Of a DNA stretch of 40,235 bases, positions 25,944 through 39,645 are shown piece by piece; within the stretch, counting starts at the first letter, position 1, and the number at the start of each line of letters is the position of its first letter. The position numbers and the translations under genes are program-made. Source of the DNA: Acidobacteriaceae bacterium (lineage in GTDB: Bacteria > Acidobacteriota > Terriglobia > Terriglobales > Acidobacteriaceae); assembly GCA_030037475.1 (NCBI GenBank), contig JASHRH010000004.1:1-40235 (forward strand). Direction: 5' to 3'. The notes below the pieces were generated by a model. It was not told the DNA's origin, did not search any database, and was given only the letters and a program-made list of their open reading frames with translations.

Positions 25944-26582
25944 ATGAGATCACTGCGATACATGTTCATGGCTGTCCTGTTGGCAGCGGTGCCCTTTGCC
26001 CTGGCGCGGCCGGCTCAGGCTCAGGTCGCCGTCGGAATCGGCATCGGCCCGTACGTCGGTTACCCTGCTCCCTATTACGTCGCTGGCCCGCCCGTCTGCG
26101 AGTGGGGCTATTACTCGTATTATCCCTACGACTGCGCACCCTACGGCTATTGGGGTCCGGACTGGTTCTATGACGGTGTCTTTATCGGCGCCGGCCCGTG
26201 GTTCCACGGCTGGTATGGCCGTCCGTGGGGATGGGGATGGGGCCGCGTCGGCTACTACGGCTATCGCGGATTCGGATATCGCGGCGGCTACGGCTATGGT
26301 CGCGCCGGCTTTGGGTACCGCGGCGGGTATGCCAACGGCTATCGTGGCGGATATGCTGGCGGATACCGCGGCGGTTATGCCAGCGGATACCGGGGATCCA
26401 TGGGCGCTCGCAGCTTGAGCTCCGGCGCGCGCGGCTACTCCGGCGGGTACCGCGGTGGCTATTCCGGCGGCTTCCGCGGTGGTGCGGCCCGCTCCTTCGG
26501 CGGTGGGTTCCACGGTGGTGGTGGCTTCCATGGGGGTGGCGGATTCCATGGAGGTGGTGGCGGCCACGGCGGACACCGCTAA
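25944..26582 (+). CDS. Secreted Gly/Tyr-rich low-complexity protein
   Basis: Signal peptide ...ALARPAQAQ, then GYRGG and FHGGGG repeats; ORF ends GGHGGHR. Confidence 0.75.
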   Translation: MRSLRYMFMAVLLAAVPFALARPAQAQVAVGIGIGPYVGYPAPYYVAGPPVCEWGYYSYYPYDCAPYGYWGPDWFYDGVFIGAGPWFHGWYGRPWGWGWGRVGYYGYRGFGYRGGYGYGRAGFGYRGGYANGYRGGYAGGYRGGYASGYRGSMGARSLSSGARGYSGGYRGGYSGGFRGGAARSFGGGFHGGGGFHGGGGFHGGGGGHGGHR

Positions 26583-28903: not shown

Positions 28904-28930
28904 AATGACGCGAATGATTTGGCCCCCCCT

Positions 28931-29015
28931 GGCGCGAAGCGGTCCCCTGCGCGAAGTGGTCCCGCGCACGAAGCAGTCTCCGGCGCGAAGCAGTCCCCGG
29001 CGCAAAGCGGTCCCG
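28931..29015. repeat. 17-nt tandem repeat, 5 units
   Basis: GGCGCGAAGCGGTCCCC / TGCGCGAAGTGGTCCCG / CGCACGAAGCAGTCTCC / GGCGCGAAGCAGTCCCC / GGCGCAAAGCGGTCCCG. Confidence 0.9.
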
Positions 29016-36445: not shown

Positions 36446-38809
36446 TCAGCGTTCGAACTGCACCACGACTTCCGTGCCGGCGGGCACCATGGTTCCCGCC
36501 GCGGGAGCCTGCTGGCGCGCGATGCCCGAACCGACCACGTGCAATCCCAGCCCTGACGCGCTGGCTTCCACCACGGCTTGCCGCAGCGACTTGCCCGCGA
36601 ACGACGGCACCGCAACCTGATTGCTCGCCACGGCGACCGACCCCGGCGGACTGGCCGTCGGCGCCGCCGCCGAGGCTGCCGCTGATATCTGTCCGCTGGC
36701 CGCTGGCGGCTGACTGCGGGCTGTTGAGCCCTGATCGCCGATCGCTGACCTCTGATCGCTCGCTGTCCCCTGATCGCTGATCGCTGACCGCTCGCTGAGC
36801 TCTGCGCTCTGTGCTCTGCTCTCTGCGCTCAACGGATCGTCCGCCGGCAAGTGGTTCGCCTCGGCGAACAGCGACTCCAGATCGTCGAGGTTCTGCGGCG
36901 GGTTCTCTTCCTCCGCGGCCATTCGTTCCGCCGCCGCGTTGTTTGCCGCCACCAGTCTCGCCGGCTTCATCGGCTGGTCGTGCGGCACGCCCAGATACTC
37001 CAGAATCTCCTGCGCCAGCTTCTCGAACAGCGGCGCGCTCGCCACGTCGCCGTAGTGTCCGGCAGGACCGCCTTTGTGCGGCGAATCCATCACCACCACG
37101 ATGGTCACCGCCGGATTGTTCACCGGCGCAAAGCCCACGAACGACGCCACGTAATCCGTATGCGAATACGTGTGCGTCTTCGGGTCGATCTTCTGTGCCG
37201 TTCCCGTCTTGCCTGCTGCGCTGTAGCCGTTCAGTTGCGCCGGCCTGCCGGTGCCGTACAGCACCACGCCCTCCAGCATCTGGCGCATCTGCGCCGCGGT
37301 CAGCTCGCTGATCACCCGACGCGCGCCCGCGGGCAGCGGGTTCGGCAGCTCATACTCCGGACGAAACGCCGCCGGCTCCAGGTGCCCCGCGGCGTCCTGC
37401 GCCATGTTGAGCACGATGTGCGGCGGCAGATACACTCCTCCGTTGGCGACCGTTGACACCATCGTCGCCACCTGGATCGGCGTCACCGCGACCTCCTGGC
37501 CCATGGGGATCGATCCGATCGTCGTCGGCTGCCACCGGTCCGGCGGCTTCAGCAGCCCGCGCGTCTCGCCGGGCAGCATGATCCCTGTCCTCTGACCGAA
37601 TCCGAAATCGCGAATGTACCTGTAGAAAGTATCTTTCCCCATGCGCAGCGCCATCTGGATGGCGCCCACGTCGCTCGAGACCTCGAGCGCCTTCGTCACT
37701 GTGATGACGTGGTAGTGCTCGCCTGGCGCGTCGTGCACGATGCGTCCCGCAATGTTGATCTGGCCGCCTTCGCAGTCCACCGTGCCGTCGGGCGTGGCCA
37801 CGCCGGAATCGAGCGCCGCCGAGTACGTCACGATTTTGAATACCGACCCCGGCTCGTAGACGTCGGTCACCGCGCGGTCGTCCAGCAGATCGGGACTGGT
37901 GTAGCGGAAATCGTTGGGATTGAAACTGGGCTGAACCGCCAGTGCCAGAATCTGTCCCGTGTGCGGATCCTGCACCACCACCGTGCCGTGCTCGGCGCCG
38001 GTGCGCTGCATGTTCCACGCCAGCGCCTGCTCCGCCATGAACTGGATGTTCGAGTCGATCGTGAGCACCAGGTTCTCGCCGGCCTTCGGATCGCGCTCCT
38101 GGCTGGCCAGCACGTGCCGCCGCGCGTCCACCGCCGTCAGCATCCGTCCAGGAACGCCATGCAGTTGCTTGTCGAACGCCTCCTCCACGCCGGCCAGGCC
38201 GTCGTCGTCCAGGCCCACATAGCCCAGCACCTGCGCCGCCAGGTTCTGGTCCGGATAGAACCGCTTGAATTCCTTCTGGAAATAGATTCCCTTCAGGTGC
38301 AGCGCCTTCACCTGCGCGATCGTCGCCGGCGGCTGCTTCCTGGCCACCCACGCAAACGCGCGCGAGGCGTTGAGACGCGCGAGGATTTCCTTCTGTTCGG
38401 TGAAACGATCCAGCGGATCCCGGTGCACAATCGCCGCCAGCTTCTCAGCGTCCTGCTCTTTGGTCGCCTCGGTCGCCATCTCCTCCGGCACCGCGTACAC
38501 GGAGTCTGCCGTGACCGTCATGGCCAGTTCGTGCAGATTGCGGTCGTAGAGAATGCCGCGCCGCGGCGCCACGGCAAAGGTGCGTTCCTGCTGCCGGTCG
38601 GCGCGCTCCTGCCACTCGCTGTGCTGGATGGCCTGCAGCCACACCAGCCGGCCGACGATCACCATGGCCCACAGCGCGAAACCGGCCAGCACCAGCACCA
38701 TGCGGATACGCCGCATCGGCGTGGCGAGCCGAGTGCCGCTTTTTTGTCGCAATGAAGGCGAGCCCGCTCGCCGCGAGGAAGATTCAGAGGAGGATGCTGA
38801 GCGGCTCAC
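36446..38809 (-). CDS. ftsI: FtsI/PBP2-type peptidoglycan transpeptidase with C-terminal PASTA domain
   Basis: RRGILYDRNLHELAM, YEPGSVFKIVTYSAAL (SxxK), AAGKTGTAQKID (KTGT), terminal QVAVPSFAGKSLRQAVVEASASGLGLHVVG PASTA-like. Confidence 0.93.
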   Translation of the reverse strand: MSRSASSSESSSRRAGSPSLRQKSGTRLATPMRRIRMVLVLAGFALWAMVIVGRLVWLQAIQHSEWQERADRQQERTFAVAPRRGILYDRNLHELAMTVTADSVYAVPEEMATEATKEQDAEKLAAIVHRDPLDRFTEQKEILARLNASRAFAWVARKQPPATIAQVKALHLKGIYFQKEFKRFYPDQNLAAQVLGYVGLDDDGLAGVEEAFDKQLHGVPGRMLTAVDARRHVLASQERDPKAGENLVLTIDSNIQFMAEQALAWNMQRTGAEHGTVVVQDPHTGQILALAVQPSFNPNDFRYTSPDLLDDRAVTDVYEPGSVFKIVTYSAALDSGVATPDGTVDCEGGQINIAGRIVHDAPGEHYHVITVTKALEVSSDVGAIQMALRMGKDTFYRYIRDFGFGQRTGIMLPGETRGLLKPPDRWQPTTIGSIPMGQEVAVTPIQVATMVSTVANGGVYLPPHIVLNMAQDAAGHLEPAAFRPEYELPNPLPAGARRVISELTAAQMRQMLEGVVLYGTGRPAQLNGYSAAGKTGTAQKIDPKTHTYSHTDYVASFVGFAPVNNPAVTIVVVMDSPHKGGPAGHYGDVASAPLFEKLAQEILEYLGVPHDQPMKPARLVAANNAAAERMAAEEENPPQNLDDLESLFAEANHLPADDPLSAESRAQSAELSERSAISDQGTASDQRSAIGDQGSTARSQPPAASGQISAAASAAAPTASPPGSVAVASNQVAVPSFAGKSLRQAVVEASASGLGLHVVGSGIARQQAPAAGTMVPAGTEVVVQFER
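36731..36830. repeat. Heptad array inside ftsI (linker)
   Basis: CTGATCG CCGATCG CTGACCT CTGATCG CTCGCTG (TCCC) CTGATCG CTGATCG CTGACCG CTCGCTG AGCTCTG CGCTCTG TGCTCTG CTCTCTG. Confidence 0.85.
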
Positions 38810-38840: not shown

Positions 38841-39380
38841 CTACTGATTCGCCGGAATGCCCGGCACCGTGGCCTCCGCCATGACCGCGGTGTTGCCGCT
38901 GGTCTCCGCGTTCGGCAGCACCACCTGGCCCGGCTGTGGAGCCGCCAGCCCCAGTTGCTGCGCCAGCGCGTTGATGCGCTCCGGGCTCGTCAGCTGCGCC
39001 TGCGCCAGTCGTAGCTCGTGATTCTGCTCCTGCAGTTGCTGCATTTGCTGCCGCTCGGTCGCAATCCGGTAGCCGTATTCGATGGCGGAGAAGTGCTGCC
39101 ATCCATAAATCAGCAGCAGCGACAGCAGAACCGCCATCGCGCAGGCAAAGGTGCGCATCTCCCGCGACCGTGCCGGATCGGCCATCGTCTGCAGCCGCGA
39201 GTTGTCGATGTGCTTGGTGAACAGCGCTTCGGGCGTCGGCCCGCGCCGGGCGCGCCGTTGCACGGCCAGCATCCGCGCGTTGTGCTCGGCCACCAGCTCG
39301 GCCTGGTCGCGCGGGGCGATCTGCTCGGTGCTGCGCCCCATGCCCATCAATCCCTGCGCCGCTATCGCCTGTGTCGCCAT
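38841..39380 (-). CDS. ftsL: FtsL-like cell division protein
   Basis: Between rsmH and ftsI; one TM helix (ACAMAVLLSLLLIYGWQHF) plus coiled-coil QQMQQLQEQNHELRLAQAQLTSPERINALAQQLGL. Confidence 0.8.
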   Translation of the reverse strand: MATQAIAAQGLMGMGRSTEQIAPRDQAELVAEHNARMLAVQRRARRGPTPEALFTKHIDNSRLQTMADPARSREMRTFACAMAVLLSLLLIYGWQHFSAIEYGYRIATERQQMQQLQEQNHELRLAQAQLTSPERINALAQQLGLAAPQPGQVVLPNAETSGNTAVMAEATVPGIPANQ

Positions 39381-39391
39381 ACTCGCCTCAC

Positions 39392-39440
39392 CTCTGCGCT
39401 GACTACTGATCGCTGACTACTAACTACTGTCTCCTGCTCC
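39392..39440. repeat. Heptad array upstream of ftsL
   Basis: CTCTGCG CTGACTA CTGATCG CTGACTA CTAACTA CTGTCTC CTGCTCC. Confidence 0.8.
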
Positions 39441-39610: not shown

Positions 39611-39645
39611 GCTAAAAGCTAACAGCTAAGAGCCAATAGCTGTCT
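39611..39645. repeat. Heptad array touching the rsmH stop codon
   Basis: GCTAAAA GCTAACA GCTAAGA GCCAATA GCTGTCT. Confidence 0.75.

Follow-up and report, generated by a model that had tools for sequence, protein, structure and literature searches.

Does a tandem array of 7-bp units inside a cell-division gene act as a frameshift switch, or does it belong to a wider family of repeats? The question is raised by the window, the whole stretch of 40,235 nucleotides of Acidobacteriaceae DNA analysed here, in which a heptad array lies in the linker of an ftsI gene.

A heptad array in the ftsI linker

The ftsI protein gave Pfam profile matches to PBP_dimer, Transpeptidase and PASTA. The gene, its domains and its repeats are placed as follows:

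36446..38809, minus strand: ftsI-type class B penicillin-binding protein, a 787-aa frame read from a provisional GTG start
37016..37987, minus strand: transpeptidase domain of ftsI, residues 275-598 (PF00905, E=1.8e-75)
36455..36616, minus strand: PASTA domain of ftsI, in frame, residues 732-785 (PF03793, E=8e-8)
36795..36830, minus strand: heptad block 1 of the linker, gene-strand words AGAGCAG, AGCACAG, AGCGCAG and AGCTCAG (AGNNCAG-type)
36731..36792, minus strand: heptad block 2 of the linker, gene-strand word CGATCAG (CGATCAG-type units) with phase slips
36682..36712, minus strand: weaker third heptad patch in the same linker, CTGGCCG-type on the plus strand
36752-36765 and 36784-36797, minus strand: two copies of the irregular junction CAGCGAGCGRTCAG in the linker

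The phase slips among the CGATCAG-type units are located at CAGCGAGCGRTCAG. The heptad array predicted at 36731-36830 is present and encodes the peptide quoted for it. It had been described as near-perfect heptads; the heptads were borne out, but the units are imperfect, as TRF reports CTGATCG in 9.3 copies with 68% match and 10% indels at 36731-36792, and CTGCGCT in 5.1 copies with 82% match at 36795-36830. The linker holds 17 lag-7 3-mer triples and none at lags 4-6, 8-11, 13 or 15; signal is also seen at lag 14, a multiple of 7, and a small value at lag 12. Codon shuffling of the linker gave a mean of 0.2 lag-7 triples (max. = 8) and synonymous resampling a mean of 1.3 (max. = 12). Since 0 of 20,000 synonymous resamplings reached 17, the lag-7 signal is not due to the encoded peptide.

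Elsewhere in the window, TRF also found a 17-nt unit repeated in tandem (5 copies) and 24/18-nt tandem repeats, at 28927-29014 and 26316-26569.

The PASTA domain is kept in frame among relatives

The original prediction took the array for a frameshift-prone site controlling the presence of PASTA: a slip by one or two heptads would shift the frame, PASTA would be lost and two forms of FtsI would arise. The 7-bp unit is not a multiple of three, the array is in principle long enough for slippage, and an out-of-frame change in it would cost the domain. The comparison of ftsI among relatives that had been proposed as a check was made with orthologues from 30 relatives; 27 C-terminal tails were read by eye, further ones were added to them, and Pfam was run on the window protein only. 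The linkers are wholly different between relatives, yet every orthologue that reaches the C-terminus keeps an in-frame PASTA-type tail, with heptads or without. Such a tail is also found in named relatives, including Acidipila rosea after widening of the motif. No stops occurred within the ftsI matches of the 30 relatives, and no off-frame alleles were seen among the orthologues. The shifted frames past the array stay open for 115 or about 254 codons, so that a slip would not cut PASTA off by a short truncation but put a long aberrant tail in its place. The array is moreover imperfect. G004, the nearest of the full-length relatives (85% identity), has no CGATCAG/AGNNCAG array, only a weak lag-7 trace, and still keeps PASTA. 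TGT, TrpS, MnmG and IspE contain arrays of the same kind, and slippage there would do no more than inactivate the enzyme; the presence of an array is therefore no sign of a switch. Taken with the retained tails, this makes a phase-variation switch highly improbable.

Judged from the comparison with G004, the ftsI array would be either a recent gain in the window's own genome or a loss in G004. It probably amounts to a longer, neutral tether between the transpeptidase and PASTA domains.

A period-7 family across the genome and genus

Further heptads occur in the gap between rsmH and ftsL:

38841..39380, minus strand: ftsL-type gene, named by its position in the division gene cluster (gene order only)
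39399..39416, minus strand: intergenic heptad array immediately upstream of ftsL, core only, reading TCAGCGATCAGTAGTCAG on the gene strand; the fuller stretch spans about 39392-39440
39611..39641, no strand assigned: second heptad array of the rsmH-ftsL gap, GCTAACA-type words

Over the whole gap, lag-7 triples number 7, where shuffling gave a mean of 0.07 and at most 4. At a score of 30, TRF returned no period-7 row for 39392-39440, where the array is short. The word CGATCAG is common to the ftsL-upstream and ftsI arrays, and TAGTCAG occurs in addition upstream of ftsL. The claim that the two arrays are of the same family holds, as both belong to one genome-wide heptad family. A genome without other copies would have spoken against the original prediction, and two word patterns find about 60 heptad arrays in the own 3.8-Mb draft genome. 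Heptad arrays upstream of ftsI/ftsL recur in many relatives, with words that differ by species.

In four congeneric genomes, noncoding DNA carries 271-451 period-7 arrays per Mb and coding DNA 6-51 per Mb, where the samples are 226-351 kb each and the coding fractions approximate, genes having been called by a simple codon-usage script. Nine control periods not divisible by 3 gave 0-76 arrays per Mb in the same noncoding DNA. The heptads are thus in excess at a unit of exactly 7 bp over other lengths and over-represented in noncoding DNA. The period-7 excess was repeated in own-genome samples and in relatives' ftsI loci that had not been selected for heptads. Coding DNA as a whole, under a loose 4-mer criterion, showed no clear excess of period 7 over other periods, and the claim for coding sequence rests for this reason on the loops and words described below. 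Strict lag-7 segment scoring missed most degenerate arrays, and k-mer triples were used instead.

One word pattern was found in 62 of 199 sampled Acidobacteriota genomes and many genomes are without it; this count is a rough guide, as the reversed control was non-zero in a number of genomes, probably through other heptad words. The words are lineage-specific: CGATCAG, AGCTCAG and TGATCAG in the own genome, CAGGGTA in G006, TAGGGGA in G004 and CACTCAG/GACTCAG in G039. Among 40 distinct words in arrays found with CAG-based patterns, CAGAGCT, CAGGAGT, CAGTGAT and CAGCGAT are the commonest. Where genomes of the genus could be matched to records, they are metagenome assemblies, and their array copy numbers are uncertain; since a typical short read is longer than an array, assembly error becomes a smaller risk but remains one.

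Three genomes of other Acidobacteriota families (G067, G089 and G101) have TCAGNNN heptads with hundreds to over a thousand pattern matches, and their perfect arrays include TCAGTAG and TCAGGGT.

Heptads recur in the same loops of conserved enzymes

Within the own genome (G000), in-frame arrays lie in the interdomain linkers of FtsI and DnaX and in internal loops of MnmG, TGT, TrpS and IspE. NCBIfam profiles name DnaX, MnmG, TrpS, Tgt and IspE, the last slightly under its curated cut-off. Compared with solved homologues, the MnmG array falls in a gap flanked on both sides by a well-aligned segment, and the TGT array within a 19-residue insertion.

Congener orthologues were obtained and aligned for four of the array genes besides FtsI. 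With G000 excluded, the congener loops held 151 lag-7 triples (codon-shuffled mean 1.8, max. = 9), or 34.0 per kb against 0.27 per kb elsewhere in the same genes, a contrast inflated by the choice of loop genes for their heptads in the own genome, since leaving G000 out lessens but does not abolish this bias. At least one lag-7 triple was present in MnmG in 8 of 9 congeners, in TGT in 7 of 8, in IspE in 5 of 8 and in FtsI in some; TrpS is the exception, with a clear array in G000 only. The TGT loop of six named relatives, isolates among them, reached via their ftsI loci, gave no lag-7 signal and is shorter in several.

The words in a given loop often differ between species. The TGT loop reads AGATCAG/AGCTCAG in G000, CGTTCAG in G005, CGGACAG in G007, AGCACAG in G008 and GGGCACC in G002, and the IspE loop carries CGATCAG in G000 and GGGTACA in G006. 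The FtsI linker holds independent heptads in G009 (GGGTGCA/GGGTACA), in G008 and in Paracidobacterium acidisoli, an isolate with CAGGGAT-type units whose linker word is also present in its rsmH-ftsL region.

Several other genes of the own genome contain heptads. Opposite-strand CTCTGNG heptads (L156 about 1500, L173 about 286-345, L177 about 1493) encode hydrophobic ALCALSSVLC-type peptides in N-terminal signal-like segments, apparently signal peptides; the proteins concerned are a substrate-binding lipoprotein, a TlpA/ResA-like protein and a TPR protein. The ArgC and ArgD frames (L137 about 1099, L168 about 1500) have heptad-derived N-terminal residues. At L171, one array seems to code for the C-terminal end of a YbaK-like frame and to make up the stretch ahead of a CcmB-like membrane-protein gene, both named by eye.

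In-frame arrays use stop-free words

As 7 and 3 share no factor, the three frames of a strand all read a heptad array as one and the same heptapeptide cycle. Frames through stop-free words therefore stay open, and only the exit frame matters. MacGregor made the same point about frames and stops for TAACTGA (PMC4679880). A perfect CGATCAG array gives SAISDQR whichever frame of one strand is read, and the other strand has a TGA stop once per 21 nt; AGCTCAG reads AQSSELR and AGCACAG reads AQSTEHR, while TAGTCAG and TGATCAG have stops on both strands. Stop-bearing words made up 0 of 24 words in six in-CDS arrays compared with 54 of 194 elsewhere (Fisher p=0.0009, the words not being independent). 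The in-ORF copies thus read free of stops, those on the opposite strand of coding sequences by using CTCTGNG words, which read open.

Words are shared between loci of one species

Loop pairs of different genes shared 11-mers in 16 of 85 cases within species and in 57 of 836 between species. The permutation p value for this within-species sharing was 0.001 at 11-mers and 0.0025-0.0085 at other lengths. GGCACCG-type words, for example, are common to FtsI, TGT and IspE of G002. The 14-mer junction CAGCGAGCGRTCAG occurs three times in the genome assembly, twice in FtsI and once in MnmG, and not at all in the reversed control. The word sharing and the shared junction may each reflect either copying from one locus to another or a strong mutational preference common to the loci.

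A search for conserved flanks or element ends beyond the repeat found none, the information content of the flanks being near the sampling floor, residual repeat at the edges aside. A mobile element with defined ends was rejected on this ground. As the arrays share no conserved flanks, the search yielded neither element ends nor a mechanism of spread.

Origin of the arrays

We consider it likely that 7-bp repeats have expanded throughout the lineage, in a near-neutral process filtered by reading frame, and that the ftsI array is one product of it. Heptads would arise through expansion in steps of 7 bp, by slippage or recombination, and words may move between loci of one genome via short-tract copying. 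Selection would then leave only in-frame, stop-free arrays at places where extra residues are harmless, and the residues presumably tolerated are mostly hydrophilic (SAISDQR, AQSSELR, QGTGNRV). Against this reading, the search of the flanks gave no mechanism of spread, and the within-species word sharing could stem from a shared mutational preference that acts locally.

That objection leads to purely local slippage, in which arrays grow in place from chance seeds with no traffic between loci, and mutational bias with stop filtering accounts for the words. The absence of conserved flanks or element ends fits such a process, and the heptanucleotide excess of bacteria has been ascribed to polymerase slippage (Mrazek and colleagues 2007, as relayed in passages of PMC4679880 and PMC4692102). 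However, local growth does not readily give species-specific words common to unrelated genes, such as the GGCACCG-type of G002, or an irregular junction, CAGCGAGCGRTCAG, that only FtsI and MnmG have in common, and we regard it as possible but doubtful. At the other extreme, an active process might write 7-bp words into loci or copy them from one locus to another, and through such concerted turnover the gaps of a species and the same few permissive loops would come to be rewritten in its own words; this we hold to be rather unlikely. The arrays might also be regulatory sites in gaps that bind protein or RNA, the in-CDS copies acting likewise from within genes. Their strong concentration in noncoding DNA and their recurrence upstream of ftsI/ftsL in many relatives agree with this idea, and translational regulation was proposed by MacGregor for TAACTGA repeats (PMC4679880). 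Yet the words at one place vary by species, which is hard to fit to one conserved binding protein, and many genomes are without such arrays, so that a regulatory role appears improbable.

Relation to known repeats

Heptamer repeats are already known from Beggiatoaceae, Xanthomonas and Nostoc; what is new is that the same enzyme loops are occupied again and again, with words specific to the species, a form of colonisation for which the literature searched gave no description. A search for such repeats in Acidobacteria likewise found none described, which is weak evidence of absence. The loops reveal that conserved enzymes can gain new peptide sequence by a route other than point mutation or classical transposition: a 7-bp repeat process, its unit coprime with 3, yields the same heptapeptide whatever the frame. 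Heptamer repeats have long been known to be over-abundant in bacteria, and with orthologous loops as recorders their origin and spread become testable. If a word-copying process is at work, loop evolution in conserved enzymes would be driven in part by a repeat process at the DNA level. Linker repeats of this kind are not in themselves evidence for phase variation.

The nearest parallel is the TAACTGA heptamer, found as direct repeats in marine Beggiatoaceae, Cyanobacteria and Bacteroidetes (MacGregor 2015, PMC4679880), a paper that makes no mention of Acidobacteria. Like the arrays here, these are 7-bp direct repeats, mostly intergenic with some inside ORFs, where stop codons limit their orientation and one repeating heptapeptide, LSVISYQ, results (PMC4679880). 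TAACTGA also has the CTGANNN form of words seen here. That system, however, is a single fixed word in 2-6 copies, mostly just upstream of starts (PMC4679880), whereas each genome here has many lineage-specific words and TAACTGA is not dominant among them. Its in-ORF copies lie mostly at protein ends or in hypothetical proteins, whereas here the same internal enzyme loops recur across the genus.

The GGGNATC repeats of Xanthomonas and Nostoc (Rehm 2015, PMC4692102) are likewise heptameric and mainly noncoding, vary in length and sequence between close relatives and include some inverted pairs. They differ in being G-rich and quadruplex-forming, with four units preferred, and under-represented in coding regions (PMC4692102), whereas the present arrays consist of CAGNNNN words and lie in frame inside enzymes. 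The words of the ftsI array and its genome lack runs of at least three G per unit; congener words such as CAGGGTA have GGG. Calothrix PCC 7601 has three different tandem heptanucleotides in one genome, as cited in PMC4692102, and resembles the present case in this respect. Such cyanobacterial repeats go by the name STRR, and we know of none that use conserved enzyme loops.

Rickettsia palindromic elements are palindromes of roughly 100-150 bp with conserved sequence, which many unrelated conserved genes carry as in-frame insertions whose peptides are tolerated. In-frame repeated DNA in unrelated conserved genes is common to them and to the arrays here, but the latter are simple 7-bp tandem words, have no conserved ends and are not palindromic. 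The elements are mentioned in PMC1950309.

A general hairpin element or palindromic architecture was rejected for the heptad arrays, as an inverted 12-mer partner within 150 bp accompanies a minority of them (8 of 152), though some of these are striking.

Two heptad arrays of Paracidobacterium acidisoli (L047:10518-10690) are long, near-perfect inverted copies of each other on either side of a loop of roughly 100 bp, and inverted array pairs like this one are also seen in L060 and at L322 of G004.
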